Source: an uncultured Bacteroidales bacterium
GTDB lineage: Bacteria; Bacteroidota; Bacteroidia; Bacteroidales; WCHB1-69
Direction: 5' to 3'
Assembly (NCBI GenBank): GCA_946413585.1
Contig: CAMKLG010000024.1
Location: 1-42,995 of the forward strand
DNA length: 42,995 bases
Below, piece after piece: positions 1-38,950 of the stretch (position 1 is its first letter; every line of letters begins with the position of its first letter). The notes under the pieces were generated by a model, which was not told where the DNA came from, searched no databases, and saw nothing but the letters and a program-made list of their open reading frames with translations. A program made the translations under genes and the position numbers.

Positions 1-55
1 CTAAACCATAACCCCTAAACCATAACCCCTAAACTATAACCCCTAAACCATAACC
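1..55. repeat. heptamer-period tandem repeat, four 14-base units
   Basis: Four copies of the 14-mer CTAAACCATAACCC (1-14, 15-28, 29-42 with one change, 43-55 lacking the last base). Each 14-mer is two related heptamers, CTAAACC and ATAACCC. The array stops five bases before the methyltransferase start codon and runs off the left edge, so its full length is unknown. It belongs to the set of seven-base-period arrays seen at ten places in this window. Confidence 0.9.
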
Positions 56-7039: not shown

Positions 7040-7783
7040 ATGGAATTTCACACCTACGGAAACCCTACAAAACCGACCCTCCTGCTGCTACCCGGATTGG
7101 GAGTGTCGCACGAGATTTTCCTTCCTTTGGTGGCATTACTGAAGGAGAACTTCCACATTGTCACGGCGGATATTGACGGATTCCTGCTCGGCAAGCCCTC
7201 GCGATTCACCTCCGTCGATGACCAGGCCGCACAAGTCAACCGTTACATTCAAGAGCATTTCGACGGGGCATTAGACGTGGCCTACGGTCTGTCGTTGGGC
7301 GGGAAAATCCTCTCGCGGATGATGGAGCGCAACGAAATCGCCATCAGCCACGCCATTATGGACGCCGCACCGCTGCTGCCACTGCCGAAATGGAGCGTGG
7401 GACCGCTGCGCTACTACCAAGCCCTTAATGTCTGGACCTGCTACCACTGGACCGGATTTTGGCGGTGGTTGTTCCATTCGCACTACTTCGACGTGCTTTT
7501 GGAGGAGGTGAAGAAGGTGTTCCCCTCAGACGGCACACGCGCCGTGCGAGAAGGATACAAATCCGTCTATACCAACAAATTGGAATCCATCGTCGGTTCC
7601 GACATCCACTATTGGTACGGCACCAAAGAGGCCTTTGTCGCCAAACCGCAGGCCAAGCACCTGCTGTCGCTCTGTCCCAGTGTACATGTGGAGATCTTTG
7701 ACAAGATGAACCACGGGCAGCTGCTGGTGGACCACCCGGAGAAGGTGGCGAAGCGGATAGAGGCAATAGGCAACAGGCAATAG
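7040..7783 (+). CDS. alpha/beta-fold hydrolase
   Basis: A 247-residue cytoplasmic protein. The oxyanion region LLLPGLG lies at 15-21, the nucleophile elbow is GLSLGG with Ser85, and the C-terminal catalytic histidine is probably His225 (MNHGQ). A Trp/Tyr-rich cap is at about 118-150. No signal peptide is visible and the substrate is unknown. The promoter TACTTTTG at 7008-7015 places a short leader before the ATG. The last residues (about 241-247, EAIGNRQ) and the stop codon TAG are encoded by a GGCAATA heptamer array, so the natural C-terminus may have been replaced when the repeat arose. Confidence 0.85.
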   Translation: MEFHTYGNPTKPTLLLLPGLGVSHEIFLPLVALLKENFHIVTADIDGFLLGKPSRFTSVDDQAAQVNRYIQEHFDGALDVAYGLSLGGKILSRMMERNEIAISHAIMDAAPLLPLPKWSVGPLRYYQALNVWTCYHWTGFWRWLFHSHYFDVLLEEVKKVFPSDGTRAVREGYKSVYTNKLESIVGSDIHYWYGTKEAFVAKPQAKHLLSLCPSVHVEIFDKMNHGQLLVDHPEKVAKRIEAIGNRQ

Positions 7784-7790
7784 GCAATAG
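7762..7790. repeat. heptamer tandem repeat over a stop codon
   Basis: GGCAATA, GGCAACA, GGCAATA, GGCAATA in direct tandem. The TAG stop codon of the alpha/beta hydrolase gene (7781-7783) lies inside the array. Confidence 0.9.
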
Positions 7791-13318: not shown

Positions 13319-13331
13319 ATTTCAAATCAAA

Positions 13332-13387
13332 CCTTAAACCTTAAACTCTAAACTCTAAACTCTAAACCCTAAACCTTAAACCCTACC
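13332..13387. repeat. heptamer tandem repeat ending two bases before a start codon
   Basis: Eight contiguous heptamers: CCTTAAA twice, CTCTAAA three times, CCCTAAA, CCTTAAA, CCCTACC. The ATG of the EamA-family gene follows two bases later, so the array occupies the whole ribosome-binding region. Confidence 0.92.
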
Positions 13388-13389
13388 CC

Positions 13390-14370
13390 ATGTTCCTCGG
13401 TGAGATAATCTCCCTGTTTGTCGCCCTTTCGTGGACCGCCACCGCCCTCTTCGCGGAGGTGGGCTCGAAGCGTATGGGCTCGCTGCCGTTCAACACGATA
13501 CGGATGACGATGTCGCTGTGTTTCCTCGTACTCACCCTATGGCTGGTGATGGGCGTGCCGTACCCGCGCTACGCCGACGGCGGCACATGGGGCTGGCTGT
13601 TGCTCTCGGGCGTGGTCGGCTACGTCATCGGCGACTACTGTCTGATGCAGGGCTACATCCACATCGGGTCGCGCTTCGGACAGCTCTTCATGACGCTTTC
13701 GGCACCCACGGCAGCCCTCACGGGACGAATCCTCCTTGGCGAGCAAATGCGCCCGGTCGCCATCCTCGGCATGGTCGTCACCCTGAGCGGTATCGCCCTG
13801 TCGATTCTCTCGAAAAGCGATGATTCGGAGCATCACGGACTACATTTCAAGCTGCCCGCGAAGGGTATCTTCTACGCGGCGATGGCCGGCATCTGCCAAG
13901 GTTTCGGGCTGGTGCTCAGCAAGATGGGACTCCAGCACTACGATGCGGCACTCACGGCACTCAACATTTCCCAAGACGCGGTCTTCGAGGGGGCGTTGCT
14001 GCCGTTGCCGGTCAGCATCTGCGTGCCCTTCGCCGCCACCACCATCCGCGCCTACATCGGACTGGCGGGCTTTTTCCTCTCGTTGATGCTGTTCAGCAAG
14101 GACGGTTTGGCGAAGTTGCGCAACGCCGTCCGCGACCGCAAGGCGATGTGGTGCGTGTTCGCCTCCACCATCTTCGGCCCATTCATCGGGGTCAGCGCGT
14201 CGCTGTTGGCCACGATGTACACCTCCGCGGGCATCGCACAGACCATCTTCGCCCTCACGCCCATCCTCATCATCGCCCCAGCCGCTTTCCTATTCCATCA
14301 GAAAGTCACTGTACGTGAGGTGATTGGCGCAGTAATCAGCGTCATTGGCGTCTGTCTTTTCTTCGTGTAA
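13390..14370 (+). CDS. EamA/DMT-superfamily transporter
   Basis: A 326-residue inner-membrane protein with about ten hydrophobic helices in two halves, each an EamA repeat. The first half carries YVIGDYCLMQGYIHIGSRFG and LLGEQMRPVAILGM; the second ends APAAFLFHQKVTVREVIGAV. Such proteins export or exchange small metabolites; the substrate cannot be inferred. The ATG at 13390 lies immediately after a heptamer array and no promoter is visible between dgkA and this gene, so readthrough from dgkA is possible. Confidence 0.87.
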   Translation: MFLGEIISLFVALSWTATALFAEVGSKRMGSLPFNTIRMTMSLCFLVLTLWLVMGVPYPRYADGGTWGWLLLSGVVGYVIGDYCLMQGYIHIGSRFGQLFMTLSAPTAALTGRILLGEQMRPVAILGMVVTLSGIALSILSKSDDSEHHGLHFKLPAKGIFYAAMAGICQGFGLVLSKMGLQHYDAALTALNISQDAVFEGALLPLPVSICVPFAATTIRAYIGLAGFFLSLMLFSKDGLAKLRNAVRDRKAMWCVFASTIFGPFIGVSASLLATMYTSAGIAQTIFALTPILIIAPAAFLFHQKVTVREVIGAVISVIGVCLFFV

Positions 14371-14538: not shown

Positions 14539-15876
14539 ATGATTAGCGTTGGAAAGTTTAGCATGAAAAGTCTTGCACTGATTTTATGCACACTGTTATT
14601 CGGTTGCGGACAGTTGTTCGCACAAGATTCCATACATATTGATTTGAAGAAAGCCATTGACATCGCCCTGTCAGAGTCGCCCACAATGCGCATCGCCGAC
14701 CGCGAAGTGCAAATCAAGCAGGTATATAAGAAAGAACAGATCGTATCGCTGTTCCCCGATGTCTCCCTGGCATCCAACTACAACCGCACGTTGTTGAAGC
14801 AGACCATGTCGATGGACATGGGCGGACAGACGATGAACATCAAGGTAGGTCGTGACAACACCTACTCCATGGGCGCGAACCTGAGTCTCCCGATTGTGGC
14901 CCCCGCCATCTGGTCGAGCCTTAAACTCAGCGCGATGGACATCGACTTGGCGGTCGAATCGGCACGTTCTTCCAAGCTGGATCTCATCAACCAGGTAAAA
15001 CAGGCCTACTTCACTCTCCTACTGGCCAAAGAGTCCTACAACGTGCTGTTGCAAAGTTATGCGAACCTCGAGGTCAGCAACCAGATTGTCACCAACTCCT
15101 ACAACCAGGGTTTGGTTTCCGAATTCGAGAAACTGCGTTCCGACGTGACCCTGCAGAACCAGCGTCCCACCCTCAACACGGCGGCCAACGGTGTGCGACT
15201 GGCGGCCATGCGACTGAAAGTCCTCTTGGGCATGGATATTGCGGAACCGGTCATTTTCGATGGCAACATCTCTGATTATGAGCAATCCGTGTTAGCTGCG
15301 GGCATCCCTTCCACCGAGGATATGAGCCTGGCATACAACTCCGCGCTGCGCCAGTTGGACCTCGGCATTGAGGAACTGGAGCAGTCGAAGAAAATCGTTC
15401 GCGGAGCCTCCTTGCCGATGCTCGCATTGGCCGGCGCGTTCCAATATTCCGGCATGGGCGACGACCGCAGTACCTTCACCAACTATCCCTACTCATACAT
15501 CGCCTTGTCCCTGCAGGTCCCCATTGTCGGCTGGGCATCCACGCATTACAAACTGAAACAGTCGGATCTGAATATCGAAAACATGCGCGACCAGCGGCTG
15601 GATGTCGAGCGCAACCTCCGTTTGGGCGTGCAGAGCTATATCGACAACATGCAGCAGGCCCTCGACGAGCTGGAAGCCGACCAGCAGACATTGAACCAAG
15701 CCCAGAAGGCCTACGAAATCGCCCAAAAGCAGTACGAAGTGGGCATGAACACTTGGCTCGACCTCATGTCCGCCGAGCTCTCCCTCACCAACACTCGCCT
15801 CTCCTTCTGCCAAGCAATTTTCAACTACCTGACGGCGAAAGCAAACTTGGATGCTACATTGGGCGTGGAGAATTAG
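14539..15876 (+). CDS. TolC-family outer-membrane efflux protein
   Basis: A 445-residue protein with a signal peptide (hydrophobic core after MKSLALILC, ending LFAQ) and two long helical hairpin repeats of the outer-membrane factor family. Examples are the heptad-like IDIALSESPTMRIADREV near the start, QVKQAYFTLLLAKESYNVLLQSYANLEVSN in the first repeat and AQKAYEIAQKQYEVGMNTWLDLMSAELSLTNTR in the second. It should form the trimeric exit duct of the tripartite pump encoded with the next two genes. The ATG at 14563 is an equally good start that leaves a cleaner signal peptide. Confidence 0.92.
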   Translation: MISVGKFSMKSLALILCTLLFGCGQLFAQDSIHIDLKKAIDIALSESPTMRIADREVQIKQVYKKEQIVSLFPDVSLASNYNRTLLKQTMSMDMGGQTMNIKVGRDNTYSMGANLSLPIVAPAIWSSLKLSAMDIDLAVESARSSKLDLINQVKQAYFTLLLAKESYNVLLQSYANLEVSNQIVTNSYNQGLVSEFEKLRSDVTLQNQRPTLNTAANGVRLAAMRLKVLLGMDIAEPVIFDGNISDYEQSVLAAGIPSTEDMSLAYNSALRQLDLGIEELEQSKKIVRGASLPMLALAGAFQYSGMGDDRSTFTNYPYSYIALSLQVPIVGWASTHYKLKQSDLNIENMRDQRLDVERNLRLGVQSYIDNMQQALDELEADQQTLNQAQKAYEIAQKQYEVGMNTWLDLMSAELSLTNTRLSFCQAIFNYLTAKANLDATLGVEN

Positions 15877-15904
15877 TTTAAGGTTTAAGGTTTAGAGTTT
15901 AGGG
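15877..15904. repeat. heptamer tandem repeat starting on the base after a stop codon
   Basis: TTTAAGG, TTTAAGG, TTTAGAG, TTTAGGG directly follow the TAG of the TolC gene with no gap. The units are close to the reverse complement of those at 13332-13387. The rest of the gap to 15946 is purine-rich (GATGA runs). Confidence 0.9.
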
Positions 15905-15946
15905 TGGGAGATGATGAGATGAGATGATGAAATATATAATGAACAT

Positions 15947-16079: not shown

Positions 16080-17093
16080 ATGAAGAGAAACATCACCATT
16101 TTATTGGCAATCACCATGTTCGTGTTTGCCGGTTGCAAAAAGAAAGAGACCGTCACCGTCGGAGGTGATCAGAAGTTCACCATCCGCACGCAGCAGGTGC
16201 ACACCCAAGAGGTGGAGCAAACCTACGAATACACCGCCATCGTGGAGGCCAACGCGGTGAACAACATCGCGCCGCTAACAGGCGGACGTATCGACAAGAT
16301 CTACGTGGAGGTCGGCGACCGCGTGAACAAAGGCAAAGTCCTCGTGCAGATGAACGAGAACAGCCTGAAACAGTCAAAATCGCAGCTTGACAACCTTAAA
16401 GCCAGCTTCAAGCGCATCGACGAGCTCTACAAGGTCGGCGGATGCTCCAAGTCCGACTGGGATGCCATGAAGACCCAACTCGATGTCGCGCAGACCACTT
16501 ACGACAACCTGATGGAAAACACGCAGTTGGTGAGCCCGATTTCCGGTGTCATCACCCAAAGAAACTACGACAGCGGTGACCTTTTCGGCGGTCTGCCTGT
16601 GGTGCAAGTGCAGCAAATCACCCCTGTGAAGATGAACATCAACCTTTCCGAGAACCTGTTCAAGAAGGTGAAGGTCGGCACACCCGTGAGCATCAAGGTG
16701 GATGCCTACGGCGACGAGGAGTTCAAGGGCAGGATCAGCCTGATCTACCCGACTATGGACGGCGCCACGCACACATTCCCCGTGGAGGTGCAGCTGGCCA
16801 ACACCGACAGCCGCGTGCGCCCTGGCATGTACGCCCGCGTGACCATCAACTTCGGCACGGAGAAGCACGTGGTGGTTCCCGACGAAGCCATCTTCCGTCA
16901 GCAAGGCTCCGGCAACCGCTATGTTTATGTCTATAAGGACGGTAAGGTTTCCTTCTATCAGGTGGAGGTCGGTCGCCACTTGGACAAATCCTACGAACTG
17001 CTCTCCGGCAACGTGCAGGACGGCGATATGGTGGCCACCACGGGACTTGCGCGCCTGAAGGACGGTTTGGAAGTCAATGTGGAGAAGAAGTAA
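16080..17093 (+). CDS. RND efflux periplasmic adaptor (membrane-fusion lipoprotein)
   Basis: A 337-residue protein. MKRNITILLA leads to lipobox VFAGC with Cys19, so it is anchored to the inner membrane by lipid. The lipoyl-like halves flank a helical hairpin: IAPLTGGRIDKIYVEVGDRVNKGKVL (about 62-87) and QLVSPISGVITQRNYDSGDL (about 147-166). The beta-barrel (about 180-260) and membrane-proximal domains follow, with RPGMYARVTI and VPDEAIFRQ. It bridges the RND pump and the TolC channel encoded on either side. The start at 16080 is set by the signal peptide. Confidence 0.93.
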   Translation: MKRNITILLAITMFVFAGCKKKETVTVGGDQKFTIRTQQVHTQEVEQTYEYTAIVEANAVNNIAPLTGGRIDKIYVEVGDRVNKGKVLVQMNENSLKQSKSQLDNLKASFKRIDELYKVGGCSKSDWDAMKTQLDVAQTTYDNLMENTQLVSPISGVITQRNYDSGDLFGGLPVVQVQQITPVKMNINLSENLFKKVKVGTPVSIKVDAYGDEEFKGRISLIYPTMDGATHTFPVEVQLANTDSRVRPGMYARVTINFGTEKHVVVPDEAIFRQQGSGNRYVYVYKDGKVSFYQVEVGRHLDKSYELLSGNVQDGDMVATTGLARLKDGLEVNVEKK

Positions 17094-17100
17094 TGGTCTA

Positions 17101-17121
17101 GGTTATTGGTCATTGGTTATT
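17101..17121. repeat. heptamer tandem repeat after the adaptor gene
   Basis: GGTTATT, GGTCATT, GGTTATT, preceded by a partial unit (TGGTCTA, 17094-17100) that abuts the TAA stop codon. Confidence 0.8.
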
Positions 17122-17180
17122 GAAACTGAGTTAAGGTGAAACAGGGTTAGCATTAATAATCAATGTTAGGTAAATAAAAA

Positions 17181-20200: not shown

Positions 20201-20373
20201 TGTGGAACTCCATGGGTATGGTCGTGGCTTGGGGTCTCACCTTTTCCACGATGGTCACCTTGATTCTCATCCCAATCCTCTTCAGCAAGTTCGCCGAATG
20301 GAACGCTCGTGGTGCGGCCCGCCGTCGCGCCCGCCGCGAACGCAACAAAGCATTAGGTGTCAACGAGGTGTAA
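17236..20373 (+). CDS. RND-family efflux pump (AcrB/HAE1-like)
   Basis: A 1045-residue inner-membrane transporter with twelve predicted helices and two large periplasmic loops, the full family length. Helix 1 follows SVERPIMTGLIYIAV. Helix 4 carries the proton-relay Asp pair (Asp399-Asp400 in GLVVDDSIV), and helix 10 carries the conserved Lys in GIVVKNGIVLIDY. The two-fold repeat is clear, with matching regions near FPTQDNARLSV in the second half. It exports hydrophobic compounds through the adaptor and TolC protein encoded upstream. The ATG at 17236 is chosen because upstream in-frame codons are part of a dispersed repeat. The substrate range is unknown. Confidence 0.95.
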   Translation: MSLYQKSVERPIMTGLIYIAVIIIGIFSLSKLPVDLFPHMDSNTIMVLTVYGGASAEDIEDNVSKPIENVLNTLSDLKHITSNSKENYSIVYLEFEYGVDIEQKTNDVRDKLDMVKSALPDGANQPYLFKFSADDMPIMMLSVQSGQSTQALYKILDDKVSSPLSRVSGVGAVSIAGAPQREIQVYCDPYKLESYNLTIETIASILGAENRNVSLGVMDVGSKTYSMRVDGEFNNADEMEDVVVGSYNNKNVYLKDVAVVRDTLQERMQESYTDGERGAMVIIQKQTGANTVQICKKVLKELPDIQRSLPADVKLNVLVDNSDNITNTIDSLEETILIILLLVVIVVLFFLGRWRATIIIAIVVPVSLIAAFIYLLATGNTLNIISLSSISIAIGLVVDDSIVVLENITTHIERGSKPKAAAVFATSEVSLSIIASTLVIIAVFLPLTFLTGMAGVLFKQLGWIVTIVIAVSLAAAMTLTPMLCSLLLKKNPKKSKWFAKVYGPIERFLIRLDEGYAKLLRWCVNHRKTVVGLASVIFLASLSLLLVIPTEFFPTQDNARLSVTVKLPQGTRVETTKALGDQIVNEIREKYPNEIKTINYSVGMPDEDNTFSLMRENGTHLLSFNIRLVKKTERDKFITEISDGIRELLRQHIEIVSSTVSTGQGNMGGQSTVDIELYCYDFNTTDQFAADLAARMRQVEGCSEVVISRDEYTPELEVVFDRQKLAENGLNSTTAAGYVRNRFNGYTASQFREDGDEYNIRVRYAPEFRNDIHAIENILMYNNMGKGIRVGDVATVEETFTPPTIVRKDRERMVKVSCVVAKGAVLSELVESAQKELDQMDVPATLDYKIGGTWEDQQDAFGDMFVLMALIVMLVYVVMAAQFESFSYPFVIMGSILFALTGVLIGLAVTRTALGIMALIGVMMLIGIVVKNGIVLIDYTSLCVERGMSIKDAVVAGGRSRLRPILMTTLTTVLGMIPLAVDKGEGAEMWNSMGMVVAWGLTFSTMVTLILIPILFSKFAEWNARGAARRRARRERNKALGVNEV

Positions 20374-20374
20374 C

Positions 20375-20402
20375 CTTTAACCCTTAAACTTTAACCCTTA
20401 AA
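20375..20402. repeat. heptamer-period tandem repeat before a start codon
   Basis: Two exact tandem copies of the 14-mer CTTTAACCCTTAAA, each two related heptamers. The array begins one base after the RND stop codon and ends five bases before the ATG of the PII-like gene. Confidence 0.9.
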
Positions 20403-20407
20403 CTATT

Positions 20408-20713
20408 ATGAAAGCAGTCTTCATATCCCTATATCAAGCCTTCTACGAGGAGGTAATGGAAATCTTAGACAAGAACGAAATCCGCGGATTCACCTACTGG
20501 AACGAGGTGCAGGGCCGTGGCAGCGACAACGGTGAGCCGCACTACGGCACACACGCCTGGCCGACCCTGAACTCCGCCATTCTGGCCTTCATGCCAGATG
20601 AAAAGGTGGCACCGCTGCTCCACGACATCCACGAGCTCGACCTCTCCGCCGAGCAGCAGGGGTTGCGCGCCTTCGTGCTCAACGCCGAGGAGGTGACGGA
20701 CAAGACAGTGTAG
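20408..20713 (+). CDS. small PII-like protein at the end of the efflux operon
   Basis: A 101-residue cytoplasmic protein with an alternating beta-alpha-beta-beta-alpha-beta pattern that fits a PII/CutA-like ferredoxin fold. MKAVFISLYQAFYEEVMEIL forms the first strand and helix, FTYWNEVQGRG the second strand and T-loop base, and LRAFVLNAEEV the last strand. I recall similar small proteins next to RND efflux genes in Bacteroidetes, annotated as PII-like or hypothetical; this is from memory. The position suggests a sensor or regulator of the pump, but no ligand or partner can be read from the sequence. The start is five bases after the tandem repeat. Confidence 0.78.
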   Translation: MKAVFISLYQAFYEEVMEILDKNEIRGFTYWNEVQGRGSDNGEPHYGTHAWPTLNSAILAFMPDEKVAPLLHDIHELDLSAEQQGLRAFVLNAEEVTDKTV

Positions 20714-25587: not shown

Positions 25588-26544
25588 ATGATGTTTTGTT
25601 TTAGAAAAATAGAAAAAAAGGGTCCTCGTATAACCTCTCTCAGAAGTGAGAGACAGTTTTTCGCTAGAATTGTCTTGATTTTTCTCCATATTGGTTGTTT
25701 TTCACTCCTTTTTGCGCAAAACGACTCCATTTCGTTTGTAAATGGCCCGTGGCAACGCGACACTCTCGACGGCCTTATCCTGCACCGCTGCCATTTTGAC
25801 AATCATCAGCTTTTTTCGTCCAATCAAATGTTATTCGTATTGGAAATATCTGACCAACAAGTATATAATCTTCAATTTGCGCATGAGAAGAAACGCACAA
25901 AAACCTCAGAAATGGCGCAAAAGCATGGTGCTGTGGCAGCTGTAAACGGTTCCTTTTTCGATATGGACAAGCATTTTCCAATATGCTATTTGCGCATAAA
26001 TGGCGTTAATATTGGCGAAAACACACCCGGAAAAGACACGGTAAACCGAAAATATTACCAATACGGCACGCTTTGCATGGAAAAAGATAGCGTTTTGATT
26101 CTCAAAACAGACTCTTCCCGCCGTTGGGAGGACGCGCTCCCCTACCCTGACATCATGACAGCCGGCCCTCTGCTGATTTACCACGATACGTTACAACACA
26201 TGCGCGATGACCGTACGTTCGTGACGCAACGTCACAACCGCACAGCCGTGGGTATTCGCGAAGACGGCACCATCCTGCTTCTCGTGGCTGACGGACGATT
26301 CAAGGAAGCAGAAGGCCTCTCCCTGACCGAACTTCAGCAGATTTTGCGATGGCTCGGCTGCCGCGATGCCCTCAACCTCGACGGCGGAGGATCCACCACT
26401 ATGTTTTTGAAAAGCAATGAATTACAAGGAGTTCTCAACTACCCCTCCGACAACGGTCACTTCGACCACGCCGGAGAACGAGCGGTATCGAATGCCGTGA
26501 TAGTAATGATGAATGATGAATTAAGAATTAAGAATGATAAATGA
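25588..26544 (+). CDS. phosphodiester glycosidase family protein (NAGPA domain)
   Basis: A 318-residue exported protein. A basic N-terminus and hydrophobic segment (about residues 26-42, ending LFAQ) precede a NAGPA/phosphodiester-glycosidase domain. Family landmarks are AAVNGSFFDM near 117, ITAGPLL-like MTAGPLLIY, HNRTAVGI near 213 and DALNLDGGGSTTMFL near 268. Members cleave sugar-phosphodiester links, for example uncovering capped sugars or processing glycopolymers. The ATG at 25588 is preferred because the reading starting at 25546 lies over the promoter. The last eleven residues are encoded by a heptamer array containing the stop codon. Confidence 0.87.
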   Translation: MMFCFRKIEKKGPRITSLRSERQFFARIVLIFLHIGCFSLLFAQNDSISFVNGPWQRDTLDGLILHRCHFDNHQLFSSNQMLFVLEISDQQVYNLQFAHEKKRTKTSEMAQKHGAVAAVNGSFFDMDKHFPICYLRINGVNIGENTPGKDTVNRKYYQYGTLCMEKDSVLILKTDSSRRWEDALPYPDIMTAGPLLIYHDTLQHMRDDRTFVTQRHNRTAVGIREDGTILLLVADGRFKEAEGLSLTELQQILRWLGCRDALNLDGGGSTTMFLKSNELQGVLNYPSDNGHFDHAGERAVSNAVIVMMNDELRIKNDK

Positions 26545-26547
26545 TGA
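26506..26547. repeat. heptamer tandem repeat covering a gene's 3' end
   Basis: Six heptamers: ATGATGA twice, ATTAAGA twice, ATGATAA, ATGATGA. They encode the tail of the phosphodiester glycosidase and contain its TGA stop (26542-26544). Confidence 0.9.
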
Positions 26548-26602
26548 ATATATTTTCTTCATTGAATTGCCTGTTGATAGAAAAAAAAATAGTTGCAGAA
26601 AA

Positions 26603-26632
26603 AAAGGCTTAGAAAAAAACTTCTAAGCCTTT
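26603..26632 (-). terminator. rho-independent terminator downstream of recQ unit
   Basis: AAAGGCTTAGAA (26603-26614) pairs perfectly with TTCTAAGCCTTT (26621-26632) around a six-base loop. The minus strand continues with a run of T residues, so it ends minus-strand transcription. It may also stop plus-strand transcripts of the glycosidase gene. Confidence 0.85.
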
Positions 26633-26657
26633 ATTATACGTGGCAAATCTTAAACGC

Positions 26658-26735
26658 TTATTTTTTCTTAAACAGAGATATAATAAAGAGCAAGACCACT
26701 GCGCCGATAACGGAAACGATGAGTTCCCATAATAT
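26658..26735 (-). CDS. possible single-pass small membrane protein (start codon unclear)
   Basis: Between the recQ stop and the terminator, the minus strand encodes W-E-L-I-V-S-V-I-G-A, then V-V-L-L-F-I-I-S-L-F-K-K-K and a stop: a transmembrane helix with a basic Lys-rich end. An in-frame stop precedes it, and the only codons before the Trp are ATA and TTA, so no standard start is visible; an ATG is present one frame off, overlapping the Trp codon. It could be a gene damaged by the adjacent heptamer array, one with a non-standard start, or an assembly error of one base. Its position just before a strong terminator supports a real small gene. Confidence 0.4.
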   Translation of the reverse strand: MLWELIVSVIGAVVLLFIISLFKKK

Positions 26736-26765
26736 TCACCATTCACTATTCACCATTCACTATTC
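26734..26765. repeat. heptamer tandem repeat over the recQ stop codon
   Basis: ATTCACC, ATTCACT, ATTCACC, ATTCACT, ATTC. The recQ stop (minus-strand TGA at 26750-26752) lies inside; the last few RecQ residues (NSEW) are repeat-encoded. Confidence 0.9.
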
Positions 26766-28660
26766 TTAAATCCCCCATCCATCATCCACCTCATCACTTC
26801 CACAATCTGCGGTTCTTCATGTTTTTTTGATAGTTCAGACAGTATCTCTTTTCCTGTCTTTCCCTGTTGCTGTAATGCTTTTATCTCTTTGGAAATCAGT
26901 TCAAAATCCTTGTTTCGTACGCTATGGATCTGACGTTTGCGGCAGACATCGCATTCGCCGCAAGGAGTGCTGGTCCATTCTCCAAAATATTGTAATAGCA
27001 ACTGACTTCGGCAGACATTATCCGTTTTGACGTAATTTTCCACCGCGGCGAGCCGTTCTTCTGCCTTTTCTTTGCGAAAATCGTAGATTTTTTTGTCGAA
27101 GTAGAGGTACTTTTCGTCAATTCTGTCTTTTAAGAAAACGAGCAGCGGGATATGACTTTGAGGTTGATAGGAAAGAATTTTTTCGGAACGAAGTTGCTTA
27201 AGTTGCTCTATAACAGACTGTTCCGTAGTTTCCAAGCGCATAGCAATCACCTTTTCGTCTATATCGGTAAACTGCGCAAAAACACCCGTATATGAACGCA
27301 ATATCAAGGTGATAATCGGCTCGTATTCAGGCTTTTCTTTTTGATATTTCAGCAACTGATCGCCATTGAGACGAAACTGCAGTTGAGATTTCTCGCGCAA
27401 ATGCTCCGACACAAGAATCACCCCGATGTTGTTGAGCAGTTTCAAGGCGTTAAAGTACTGAGCAGCATTCATGTTTACGCTTCGCGCGTGTTCTTCCATC
27501 GAAAACGGGAAGACCTTGTTCTGTCCAGTGCCGATCTCAATGTGAAAGAATTGGCAGAGCTCCCGATAGACCTCACGCACGCGATCCAACGTAGGGAATG
27601 TGAAGGTGAAATTGCGTTTGAGTTGCGCCACATCGTAGTTGTCGTACAACAAGATAGCCACGGCAGGTTGCTCGTCGCGCCCCGCGCGGCCCGCCTCCTG
27701 GAAGTACGCTTCTAACGTGTCGGGAAGGTCAATGTGTACCACAAAACGCACGTCCGGCTTGTCAATGCCCATGCCAAAAGCGTTAGTGGAGACCATCACG
27801 CGAGTTGTCCCCTTCATCCAGCTTTGCTGCTTGCGGTCGCGTTCGCGAGGCTCCAAACCTGCATGGTAATAGTCTGCAGAAATGCCATTATTGCGCAAGA
27901 AATCTGCTGTTTCCGCCGTTTTCTTGCGATTACGCACATACACGATACCCGAACCAGGATAACGGTTCATAATGCGCAACATTCTACTGTTCTTATCCTC
28001 TTCATTCACAACAAAATAGGTAAGATTCGAACGCTTGAAACTTTTCTGGAAAACATTCTCGGCATTGAATGCCAGACGAAACTGGATATCCTTCACCACC
28101 TCCGGCGTGGCGGTGGCCGTAAGAGCAAGCACCGGCACTTGAGGGAAAACCTTACGAATCTGTGCGATTTCAAGATAGGGCGGACGGAAATCGTAACCCC
28201 ATTGGGAGATGCAATGCGCCTCATCCACCGCAATCATGGAGACTGGCATTCGCTGGAAATTGGCCTTAAAGCTCTCCGTTTGAAGGCGTTCTGGAGATAC
28301 GTAAAGAAAACGGTATTCGGGGTCAAACAGCACATTATCCACCATCGATTGGATTTCGCTCACGCGCATCCCCGAGTAGATCGCACCCGCCTTGATGCCT
28401 CGTGCGCGAAGGTGCTCTACCTGATCCTTCATCAGCGCAATGAGCGGCGAAATCACAATGCAAAGTCCGCCTTTGACGAGCGCGGGCACCTGAAAACAGA
28501 TGGACTTGCCACCGCCCGTGGGCAGCAACGCCAACGTGTCGCGATTCTCCAACACCGACAGGATAATGTCCTCCTGCAGTGGTCGAAACGCATCATAGCC
28601 CCAGAATTGCTTCAGAACTGCACGACTGCGTTGACGTAAAAACTCTGTTCTCTCTACCAT
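26750..28660 (-). CDS. recQ: ATP-dependent DNA helicase RecQ
   Basis: A 636-residue superfamily-2 helicase. Walker A is PTGGGKS (47-53), DEAH at 146-149, followed by the RecQ aromatic loop region CISQWGYDFRPPY, then GMGIDKPDVRFVVH and the arginine finger QEAGRAGRDEQPA. The zinc-binding RecQ-Ct has four Cys (VCRSQLL, then CGECDVC), with a winged-helix region around it. The C-terminal about 70 residues look helical (KTGKEILSELSKKHEEPQIVEVMRWM) and may be an HRDC-like or helix-turn-helix end. RecQ works in recombination repair; recO lies directly upstream. A -7 element sits only eight bases before the ATG, so the message may be nearly leaderless. Confidence 0.95.
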   Translation of the reverse strand: MVERTEFLRQRSRAVLKQFWGYDAFRPLQEDIILSVLENRDTLALLPTGGGKSICFQVPALVKGGLCIVISPLIALMKDQVEHLRARGIKAGAIYSGMRVSEIQSMVDNVLFDPEYRFLYVSPERLQTESFKANFQRMPVSMIAVDEAHCISQWGYDFRPPYLEIAQIRKVFPQVPVLALTATATPEVVKDIQFRLAFNAENVFQKSFKRSNLTYFVVNEEDKNSRMLRIMNRYPGSGIVYVRNRKKTAETADFLRNNGISADYYHAGLEPRERDRKQQSWMKGTTRVMVSTNAFGMGIDKPDVRFVVHIDLPDTLEAYFQEAGRAGRDEQPAVAILLYDNYDVAQLKRNFTFTFPTLDRVREVYRELCQFFHIEIGTGQNKVFPFSMEEHARSVNMNAAQYFNALKLLNNIGVILVSEHLREKSQLQFRLNGDQLLKYQKEKPEYEPIITLILRSYTGVFAQFTDIDEKVIAMRLETTEQSVIEQLKQLRSEKILSYQPQSHIPLLVFLKDRIDEKYLYFDKKIYDFRKEKAEERLAAVENYVKTDNVCRSQLLLQYFGEWTSTPCGECDVCRKRQIHSVRNKDFELISKEIKALQQQGKTGKEILSELSKKHEEPQIVEVMRWMMDGGFKNSEW

Positions 28661-37084: not shown

Positions 37085-38617
37085 ATGAACCGACGACAAT
37101 CCTTTCACAAAACGTTCTATTTGCTCGGCCTCATTGCGGTGGCAGTGGCTATGCCTTTGTCGCATTTCTTGATGGGGCTGGCCTGTTTCCTGCTGTTTCT
37201 CAATTGGCTATTCGAATGGAACTGGGAAGAAAAGCGACGTTTGGCTTCACAAAACCGCGAAGGGATATGGTTCTCTCTTTTCTATCTGATTTATGCCATC
37301 GGATTGGTAAACGTCACCGACTGGGGAGCGGCGGGCAAAGAGATGCTTAGCAAACTCCCGTTCCTACTAGCCCCACTTATCATTCTTACTTCCAAACAAC
37401 TAAAAGACAAACAGTTACAACTAATCTTCAGCTCATTCATTTTGGCCACTTTAGCAGGATGCCTCTTGAATTTCATCTATGCGAAAACGCATGAAATCGG
37501 TAATTTTCGCGAAATGTCGCGTTTCATCGACCACATCCGTTTCGGCCTCTGTGTTGTGCTGTCTATCGTTTTCTGCATCCATTATTGGATTCATCCTTCC
37601 GTCAGATTCATTCCTTATAAGCATATCTATCCCATAATCAGCATTTTACTACTTCTCTATCTCTTTTACTCTCAAACTCTTTCCGGTATTTTCATCTTGA
37701 TTGCCATTACCTTATGCTATATCGTCTATCTTATTGTCAATCAAAACAATACAAAATTAAAATGGACAGCCGGAGGATTAGTTGGACTATTCTTTATAGC
37801 ATCCGCCTCATACATAGCATACATTTCGTACGATTATTTCCATGTGAAAGATGCTGAGCCTGATCGCACGGCGTTGACCGCCTCTGGCCATCCTTATACC
37901 TTCGATGACAATTCCATCATAGAAAACGGTCACTACATTGATCATTATGTATGCAAAAGTGAGTTACAGACCGCTTGGAACATGCGTTCCGACTCGGTTT
38001 ACGACGAACTAATTTCCGCGACGCTTATTCGCTACCTCAATTCGACAGGTTCGCGTAAGGACTCCGCCGCTGTGATGCAGCTTAGCGAGGAGGACATTCA
38101 CAATATTGAGAACAAAACCGCAAATGTTTACTACGTACAGGGGAACATTCGCCGAGCGCTCTACGAGACCTTTTTCGGCATTTCCCTATACAAGAAACAC
38201 GGCATTGTGAACGAATCTTCTTTGCTTGAGCGCTTGGAATTGTGGCATGCTTCATGGAACATCATACAAGATCACTGGTTTTTAGGAGTCGGCATCGGGC
38301 AGCAACGCGCCGCCTTAGATCAGCAATTAACCAAACAACATTCGCCTCTTATTGTAAAAGAAAAACTCCGTACCTGTCACAATCAGTTCCTCACTTATTG
38401 GCTCACCGCCGGCATCATTCCTCTACTATACTTCTGCTTGCTACTGTTTTTCCCATTTGTGAGCATGTCAAAACGCATCACGTTCGTCTATTTTGCACTC
38501 ATGCTGATGCTGTTCCTCTCCATGCTGGCGGAAGACACCCTTGACGCGCAAACCGGCCGGATGCTGTTTACGATTTTCGTGCCACTGCTGCTGTTTAATA
38601 AAACCGCTGAACATTAA
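37085..38617 (+). CDS. O-antigen ligase/polymerase (WaaL/Wzy-type membrane protein)
   Basis: A 510-residue inner-membrane protein with about 12 hydrophobic helices and one large periplasmic loop (about 255-385). The loop and its end carry the Wzy_C signature: LELWHASWNIIQDHWFLGVGIGQ followed by CHNQFLTYWLTAGIIPLLYF, with a conserved His in each. Such enzymes join O-polysaccharide to lipid A-core or polymerise repeat units. With porZ in the same window, a role in the A-LPS used by T9SS is an attractive but unproven idea. It begins three bases after the protease stop. The TAA stop lies inside a heptamer array. Confidence 0.88.
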   Translation: MNRRQSFHKTFYLLGLIAVAVAMPLSHFLMGLACFLLFLNWLFEWNWEEKRRLASQNREGIWFSLFYLIYAIGLVNVTDWGAAGKEMLSKLPFLLAPLIILTSKQLKDKQLQLIFSSFILATLAGCLLNFIYAKTHEIGNFREMSRFIDHIRFGLCVVLSIVFCIHYWIHPSVRFIPYKHIYPIISILLLLYLFYSQTLSGIFILIAITLCYIVYLIVNQNNTKLKWTAGGLVGLFFIASASYIAYISYDYFHVKDAEPDRTALTASGHPYTFDDNSIIENGHYIDHYVCKSELQTAWNMRSDSVYDELISATLIRYLNSTGSRKDSAAVMQLSEEDIHNIENKTANVYYVQGNIRRALYETFFGISLYKKHGIVNESSLLERLELWHASWNIIQDHWFLGVGIGQQRAALDQQLTKQHSPLIVKEKLRTCHNQFLTYWLTAGIIPLLYFCLLLFFPFVSMSKRITFVYFALMLMLFLSMLAEDTLDAQTGRMLFTIFVPLLLFNKTAEH

Positions 38618-38717
38618 CCATTAACCGTTAACCATTAACCGTTAACCATTAACCATTAAACATTAAACATTAACCGTTAACCATTAACCGTTAAACATTA
38701 AACATTAACCATTAACC
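38613..38717. repeat. longest heptamer array, 15 units
   Basis: Fifteen contiguous heptamers, mainly ATTAACC and GTTAACC with some ATTAAAC and GTTAAAC. The O-antigen ligase stop codon (TAA, 38615-38617) is in the first unit. The non-coding gap 38618-38950 is filled by this array, the palindromic family B element, a second array at 38812-38850 and about 100 further bases without a recognised feature. Confidence 0.95.
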
Positions 38718-38722
38718 ATCGC

Positions 38723-38779
38723 CCCCAGGGCTCGCTATCGCTCACCCTGGGCTGACACGTGTCGGGCCTTCAGCCCTAT
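38723..38779. repeat. palindromic dispersed repeat, family B copy 2
   Basis: CCCAGGG/CCCTGGG arms (about 38725-38752) match copy 1 at 2245-2300 in the opposite orientation. These are followed by GGGCTGA and TTCAGCCC arms enclosing the palindrome GACACGTGTC, making a nested hairpin structure. Confidence 0.85.
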
Positions 38780-38811
38780 TTGGAAGTTGTTTATACAATC
38801 TCGTAACCCCT

Positions 38812-38850
38812 TAACTACTAACTACTAACTACTAACTGCTAACTGCTAAC
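38812..38850. repeat. heptamer tandem repeat, second array in this gap
   Basis: TAACTAC three times, TAACTGC twice, and TAAC. The unit sequence differs from that of the array only 95 bases away, but the period is the same. Confidence 0.92.
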
Positions 38851-38950
38851 TTTTTTCGCACCCCATGTCACCTTTCCCCCACCTCATCCGTTTAACAGTT
38901 GAATCGATTCGGTAATGAACGGAAAAATATAACCTTAAAAATTAATAGTC

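Follow-up and report, generated by a model that had tools for sequence, protein, structure and literature searches.

The intergenic DNA of a lineage of rumen Bacteroidales carries numerous tandem arrays with a repeat period of seven nucleotides, and these arrays are a strong, extreme form of a known phenomenon, that of intergenic heptamer repeats. In the current work, the arrays were analysed in a stretch of 42,995 nucleotides (referred to as the window), in the draft genome from which it derives (125 contigs, 88% complete; 443 of 2,980 kb read, besides 3-kb loci taken in around one pattern) and in related genomes. The explanation that we favour, with a probability of about 0.48, is that the period is mainly inherited, the arrays being copied between loci and species, growing locally and being filtered at gene boundaries. 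In this view, the arrays would form a single population of intergenic heptamers specific to the lineage, in which arrays related by descent would be copied among intergenic sites, and between species by recombination, would drift by substitution, mostly at tolerant positions of the unit, and would change in length by whole units. Selection would retain arrays at coding boundaries, directly after stops and directly before starts, in the strand sense least harmful to expression.

Ten heptamer arrays had been proposed for the window by a first-pass annotation, and each is present within a few bases of where it was placed. An array test, involving 21 consecutive lag comparisons of which at least 18 had to match, was passed at a fixed lag by nine of these, seven at period 7 and two at period 14 (1-55 and 20371-20404), and a scan of periods 2 to 30 across the 43 kb of the window retrieved arrays at 7, 14, 21 and 28 only. 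The array at positions 1-55 (plus strand), composed of two heptamers, CTAAACCATAACCC, touches the start of the contig and contains no G on the strand shown. An AGGCAAT array (7761-7790, minus strand) overlaps the stop of the ORF at 7040-7783 (plus strand), while an AAACCCT-family array (13329-13385, plus strand) ends 4 nt ahead of the ATG at 13390. The GTTTAAG array (15876-15905, minus strand) begins at the stop of the ORF at 14563-15876 (plus strand), and just past the stop at 17093 lies a short GGTTATT array (17101-17122, minus strand), which with 3.1 copies falls below the threshold of the lag test. The second period-14 array, TAAACTTTAACCCT (20371-20404, plus strand), is situated between the stop at 20373 and the ATG at 20408. 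Two arrays stand head-to-head: an AATGATG/AATTAAG array (26505-26549, minus strand), which covers the 3' end of a phosphodiester glycosidase-like ORF (25912-26544, plus strand) and whose site holds different units in the sister species L034, and an ATTCACC/ATTCACT array (26733-26765, plus strand), which overlaps the stop of a recQ-like ORF (26750-28660, minus strand). By eye, a small GlsB-like gene was seen between arrays in the sister species (L034:1130-1395), and an apparent remnant of the 3' end of the GlsB-like gene lies at about 26620-26720 of the window.

The main array of the window, ATTAACC/GTTAACC with 15.4 units (38612-38719, plus strand), overlaps the stop of an O-antigen ligase-like ORF (37085-38617), and a TAACTAC/TAACTGC array (38812-38851, plus strand) was retrieved by the lag test. 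Between these two arrays, an Acido-Lenti-1 RNA motif (RF01687; 38724-38777, plus strand) scores 37.6 bits, the gathering threshold being 37, and similar sequences were seen by eye in L034, in L027 and twice in L031. This palindromic motif was rejected as a general partner of the arrays: in a search of 41 stretches with short sub-motifs, its full form was found elsewhere only at the orthologous site of L034, besides scattered partial matches.

The dominance of period 7 that had been claimed for the whole genome was borne out. In a sample of 400 kb (the first 20 kb of each of the contigs C1 to C20), the same lag test retrieved 47 arrays at period 7 and 32, 22 and 12 at periods 14, 21 and 28, as against at most five at any of the remaining periods up to 30. 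Intergenic DNA contains 116 exact tandem dimers of period 7, compared with 8.8 expected under a first-order Markov model; periods 6 (40 versus 28.7) and 8 (5 versus 3.7) are near expectation, and a small excess occurs at period 11 (10 versus 0.15). Relatives were found by means of a window protein and are mostly drafts of rumen Bacteroidales; in 20 of their loci (361 kb), 32 arrays have period 7 and seven have period 8, the runner-up among non-multiples. The strict copying step of seven bases that had been put forward is not supported, as 13 arrays of period 8 and seven of period 6 stand beside 148 of period 7, and six of the 13 period-8 arrays share a TAACC or TAAACC core, one 8-mer array with such a core occupying the locus of the window's main array. 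These soft periods and shared-core 8-mers favour inheritance over a ruler, and the relatedness of the units, described next, likewise speaks against a strict 7-nt ruler.

The 54 arrays of the genome comprise 32 circular units, and the earlier statement that units differ by locus is correct to that extent; it fails in that 46 pairs of arrays have identical units, whereas 30 random sets gave 2.6 such pairs on average and 9 at most. When units are joined by single substitutions, 26 of the 32 fall into one component (null mean 8.9, maximum 24), as do 58 of 62 units from all species (null mean 35.9, maximum 54), and none of 300 letter-shuffled sets, letter shuffling being the only null, matched the connectivity of either network. 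This recurrence and connectedness supports an inherited period and, with family abundance varying by species, speaks against the proposal that unrelated units grew locally and independently, although a shared sequence preference could also mimic a connected network. The G and C residues of a unit lie on one strand in 79 of 129 units with at least two G/C (49 expected), and the units of 51 of the 54 arrays contain a stop codon on at least one strand, compared with 55% of random units. Stops in all frames were rejected as the reason for seven, any period indivisible by 3 being equally good.

Variation within units is concentrated at one or two positions in four of five families. In ATAACC-N, the core shows one change in 630 sites (27 arrays, 105 units, with at most one mismatch admitted per unit), while the seventh position is A in 53, C in 31, T in 16 and G in 5 units, that is, non-A in 52 of 105. 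Most of the variation in TTTAGGG falls on positions five and six and most of that in GGCTATT on position five, TAACTAC varies at position six, and AATGATG, with four variable positions, is the exception. Such position-specific variation is not expected of neutral slippage and mutation and points to constraint; the constancy of ATAACC-N outside N was counted in favour of an inherited period.

Per 100 kb, the source genome has 12.2 arrays. Two array-rich congeners reach 16.4 (over 220 kb) and 20.0 (over 55 kb), further array-rich congeners have 6.0 (10 arrays in 167 kb) and the remaining congeners 1.1 (4 in 363 kb), while sampling across the order gave 0.4 (2 in 547 kb, comprising 38 readable stretches from as many families). 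Genomes were classed as array-rich when the pattern search for TAACTRC or for the CAATAACC element gave more than 10 matches (17 of 40 genus genomes), a split which was set after the pattern searches were seen and which uses counts of overlapping matches and not of arrays. A TAACTRC 19-mer occurs in 21 of the 40 genus genomes (1 to 396 matches, 53 in the source genome) and is absent from 19, its reversed control giving zero matches in all 40. The CAATAACC...ATAACCATT element is likewise found in 21 of the 40, of which 19 are shared with TAACTRC, and its reversed control yields single matches in two genomes. An 18-mer of TTTAGGG has 37 matches in the source genome, none in three congeners, and is present in four of 295 genomes of the order. 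The trait is hence enriched in one lineage and not unique to it within the order. A reversed control (an ATTTGGG-type array) gave 10-14 matches in G047, G192, G200 and G263, which belong to other families; because of these matches, further heptamer-rich lineages probably exist in the order. The dispersed, lineage-specific TAACTRC and CAATAACC families support the inherited-period explanation, and the dense and sparse close species offer a natural comparison for locating the responsible gene or process.

The same gene end may carry different arrays in different species. After the O-antigen ligase-like gene, seven relatives share the gene that follows, and of these four carry a stop-side array and three have none: at the site of 38612-38719, ATTAACC is found in L034, GTTAACC in L027, AATAACC in L031 and the 8-mer GCATAACC in L026, with no array in L028, L029 and L035. 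At the site of 38812-38851, TAACTAC is present with varying copies in L034, L026 and L031, is reduced in L027 and is absent as an array from the same three species. In agreement with what had been predicted, copy number at one locus thus differs between relatives, as do the units. By eye, L035 was seen to contain about five copies of a unit of approximately 51 bp, comprising a CCCTGTCGGGAC hairpin and a T-run (L035:13180-13480), in the place of the heptamer arrays of its sister species.

Two further gene ends, named pckA and ABC transporter by eye from translations, were compared across species. For the 3' end of pckA, 30 loci were returned, of which 12 represent close species (97-100% protein identity, complete 3' end; one incomplete locus and the fragment G314 are omitted). 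The best period in the 3' gap is 7 in all 12, with 16-21 of 21 matches, other periods from 5 to 10 scoring at most 15, and nine reach the array threshold of 18. Six unit families occupy this gap, GGTTATN in seven species and ACTTGAG, ATCACTA, AAACCTT, GGCAAYA and GACGTAT in one species each, and three inverted, hairpin-capable pairs were seen by eye. Of 17 more distant species, six reach at least 16 at period 7, their units being different ones, and the other 11 stay at 14 or below. Inverted repeats such as GTAGAGACGCG...CGCGTCTCTAC were noted in the pckA 3' gaps of L172, L187, L190, L193 and L195 (one array-rich species and four others); their GTAG ends are REP-like. Of the 28 ABC-transporter loci listed, eight have the CAATAACC element or a variant close to it immediately ahead of the start, in upstream sequences which by eye are of at least four kinds, and four have an ATTCTAC-type array. 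A gap between conserved genes can in this way be replaced whole while the coding ends stay put.

Conversely, a gap of about 110 nt including its array is shared without change, apart from a difference in A-run length, by three species which pairwise are 76-84% identical at third codon positions. Both this tract and the six families in the pckA 3' gap support an inherited period. Since blocks of identity were found in coding DNA too, exchange between species is general and not specific to gaps. In the 5' half of pckA, six successive 60-column windows are fully identical between L167 and L168, the rest being about 92% identical; these blocks indicate mosaic recombination between rumen species.

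Within the inherited-period explanation, we infer that arrays are copied from one locus to another, that some agent does the copying and that selection accounts for where arrays lie. Several points were counted against this explanation. No copying event was observed, and an unsystematic look at arrays from different loci noticed no common flanks besides those of the CAATAACC element. Variation at set positions and identity of coding tracts also weigh on this side, as does weak internal lag structure: of 21 long arrays, some have elevated identity at lag two and only one passes an all-lag test, so that the evidence for local growth is weak. Reverse transcriptase, loss of mismatch repair and RAYT-type transposases were tested as explanations of the copying, and none was found to explain it. 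All 40 genomes contain a MutS_V domain, which gives a strong match in the source genome; the strongest class of match is missing from the drafts G296, G298, G307 and G327, of which G298 is array-rich and 68% complete. Y1_Tnp occurs in 36 of the 40 genomes; none of the 17 array-rich genomes lacks it, but neither do 19 of the 23 others.

A rather unlikely alternative is DNA polymerase slippage with a preferred step of 7 nt, a hypothesis ascribed to Mrazek et al. 2007, by which arrays would arise from local untranslated sequence and the footprint of the polymerase would set the period. It agrees with the finding that 61 of the 116 period-7 dimers are repeats of fewer than 2.5 copies, 8.8 dimers being expected in all, which places the excess at seven already in the shortest repeats. 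The six families at the pckA end, each with its best score at period 7, and the prevalence of heptamers in other phyla (PMC4692102, PMC4679880) also accord with slippage, and given the MutS_V domain in every genome it would not need a loss of mismatch repair. The recurrence and network of units, the preference of variation for set positions and the expansion of 8-mers with a shared core all count against it. Replisomes are conserved, and the near-absence of the trait from the stretches sampled across the order, together with its low density in the remaining congeners, therefore tells against slippage as well.

Genes were called by our own codon-based method, according to which 49 of 54 arrays are intergenic, as had been claimed; the other five lie at a gene end (four) or a called gene start (one). 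For the analysis of polarity, 146 arrays were each oriented on the G-poor strand, arrays with equal numbers of G and C having been dropped beforehand and orthologous arrays from several species being entered separately. At most 15 nt from a coding boundary lies the 3' end of 77 arrays and the 5' end of 24, both ends doing so in eight (69 versus 16 without the latter), and by the nearer end the polarity is 93 versus 40; in other words, the 5' end of the G-rich strand lies nearest the ORF. Among 24 pairs of neighbours in the same gap, 13 are co-oriented and 11 have the G-rich array followed by the C-rich one, with none in the reverse order, and two of 12 arrays between divergent gene pairs hug a gene. 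The bias before starts is 20 versus 3. On the stop side, non-overlapping arrays at 0-25 nt are balanced (13 versus 12), the bias being confined to stop-overlapping arrays, and polarity there arises in part from these arrays and from the strand on which stop codons occur. The polarity is not accounted for by the base composition next to genes.

The arrays might be imagined as functional punctuation, that is, selected protein-binding, leader, terminator or insulator sites in which the spacing of seven and a core with a free position would be recognised. This possibility, which we judge unlikely, is kept alive by the core constraint and by the number of units in the CAATAACC element, whose mode is four (33 of 49, the search pattern having admitted only 2-6 units). 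Such elements end at most 12 nt from a gene boundary in 30 of 49 cases (18 starts, 12 stops), and their position before the ABC-transporter start within different upstream sequences, as well as the persistence of period 7 after pckA with its inverted pairs, would be consistent with a function. However, one protein cannot bind six different sequences at one site, and the CAATAACC element lies on opposite RNA strands before starts and after stops. Few arrays have a complementary partner: among 61 arrays, six are inverted and three direct when at least 13 of 14 matches are required, and eight and nine, respectively, at 12 or more. Hairpin terminators formed by inverted arrays would thus involve a minority of arrays only, and the genes beside arrays in four stretches are, by eye, ordinary housekeeping genes.

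It is quite improbable that the polarised arrays of Bacteroidales, Xanthomonas and Nostoc are one general phenomenon, in which a sequence-tolerant replication or repair process would extend the G-rich strand from coding boundaries outwards in steps of 7 nt. Such a process would need neither quadruplexes nor a reverse transcriptase, and a fresh unit family would rebuild a gap on the time-scale of species.

Telomerase-like end-healing, in which the G-rich strand would be extended outwards from coding-side ends that are then joined, is very improbable. On both sides of coding DNA, the 5' to 3' direction of the G-rich strand tends to point away from it, the inverted pairs are all G-then-C (11 versus 0), and TTTA(G/A)(G/A)G resembles degenerate telomere repeats. 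Against this, no reverse transcriptase domain was found in the source genome (88% complete), and the domain, present in nine of 40 genomes (6 of 17 array-rich, 3 of 23 others), is not required; its absence from 10 of the 16 other array-rich genomes too led us to reject synthesis by reverse transcriptase, and on the stop side the bias is restricted to stop-overlapping arrays. The G-quadruplex elements that have been suggested for Xanthomonas and Nostoc have a similarly small chance of explaining the arrays. For G-rich heptamers, Rehm et al. 2015 report a matching geometry, discussed as quadruplexes, and the present arrays agree with the consulted sections of that article (PMC4692102) in their polarity, in a mode of four units, in the inverted pairs and in lying between genes, the TTTAGGG family also having runs of three Gs. 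However, 73 of the 146 arrays have no GG in their consensus unit and keep the polarity (30 versus 7), and because of this the link to quadruplexes is not needed for the polarity; polarity without G-runs speaks against quadruplexes. Phase-variation repeats at hypermutable contingency loci are the hardest of all to credit, as the arrays are numerous, the adjoining genes in four stretches ordinary by eye and one array identical in three diverged species, even though copy number varies between relatives at some sites, each species being represented by one genome.

The arrays were also compared with known repeats. The heptanucleotide repeats of cyanobacteria are named STRR. The arrays had been put forward as a candidate for an undescribed system, which is not supported, since arrays of heptamers, cases in Bacteroidetes and the idea of a 7-nt polymerase contact appear in PMC4679880 and the prevalence of heptamers in PMC4692102. 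The former attributes to Mrazek et al. 2007 both the polymerase-contact idea and the observation that, in most genomes, no long unit is commoner than the heptamer, and the latter cites a 2007 reference for both points. Heptamer arrays are known from Beggiatoaceae, cyanobacteria, some Bacteroidetes, Xanthomonas and Nostoc (PMC4679880, PMC4692102), and a 2025 survey reports that a subset of 6-9 bp repeats is highly enriched in prokaryotic phyla (PMC12699852); in the consulted sections of PMC4060949 nothing on heptamers was found. The corresponding sections of PMC4679880 and PMC4692102 leave the cause and function of intergenic heptamer repeats open, and in the literature searched we saw no description of the present lineage, of networks among units or of a polarity that does without G-runs.

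With the cyanobacterial heptamers and long simple sequence repeats, as cited in PMC4679880 and PMC4692102, the present arrays share heptamers as the commonest long unit, and like the STRR and LSSR kinds they show an excess at period 7 and are mostly non-coding; placement, polarity and unit relatedness were measured here, the originals being known second-hand. The TAACTGA repeats of Beggiatoaceae, cyanobacteria and five Bacteroidetes (MacGregor 2015; consulted sections of PMC4679880) are likewise intergenic, patchy heptamer arrays, which often adjoin start codons and in some Bacteroidetes occur as several heptamers together, whereas in the present lineage TAACTAC/TAACTGC stands beside many other families and arrays on the stop side predominate. 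The closest likeness is to GGGNATC and GGGGAYT of Xanthomonas and Nostoc, which in the sections of PMC4692102 drawn upon also have period 7, are intergenic and dispersed, possess a variable unit position and inverted pairs, prefer four units (here four is the mode of the CAATAACC element within the 2-6 units searched, and the TTTAGGG family shows no such preference) and have the G-rich 5' end nearer the ORF whatever its direction. In contrast to these, only two of the 12 arrays that lie here in gaps between divergent genes are close to a gene, quadruplex-capable G-runs do not characterise the units as a whole, many families coexist with half of the arrays lacking GG, the polarity exists without G-runs, and the families swap between close species.
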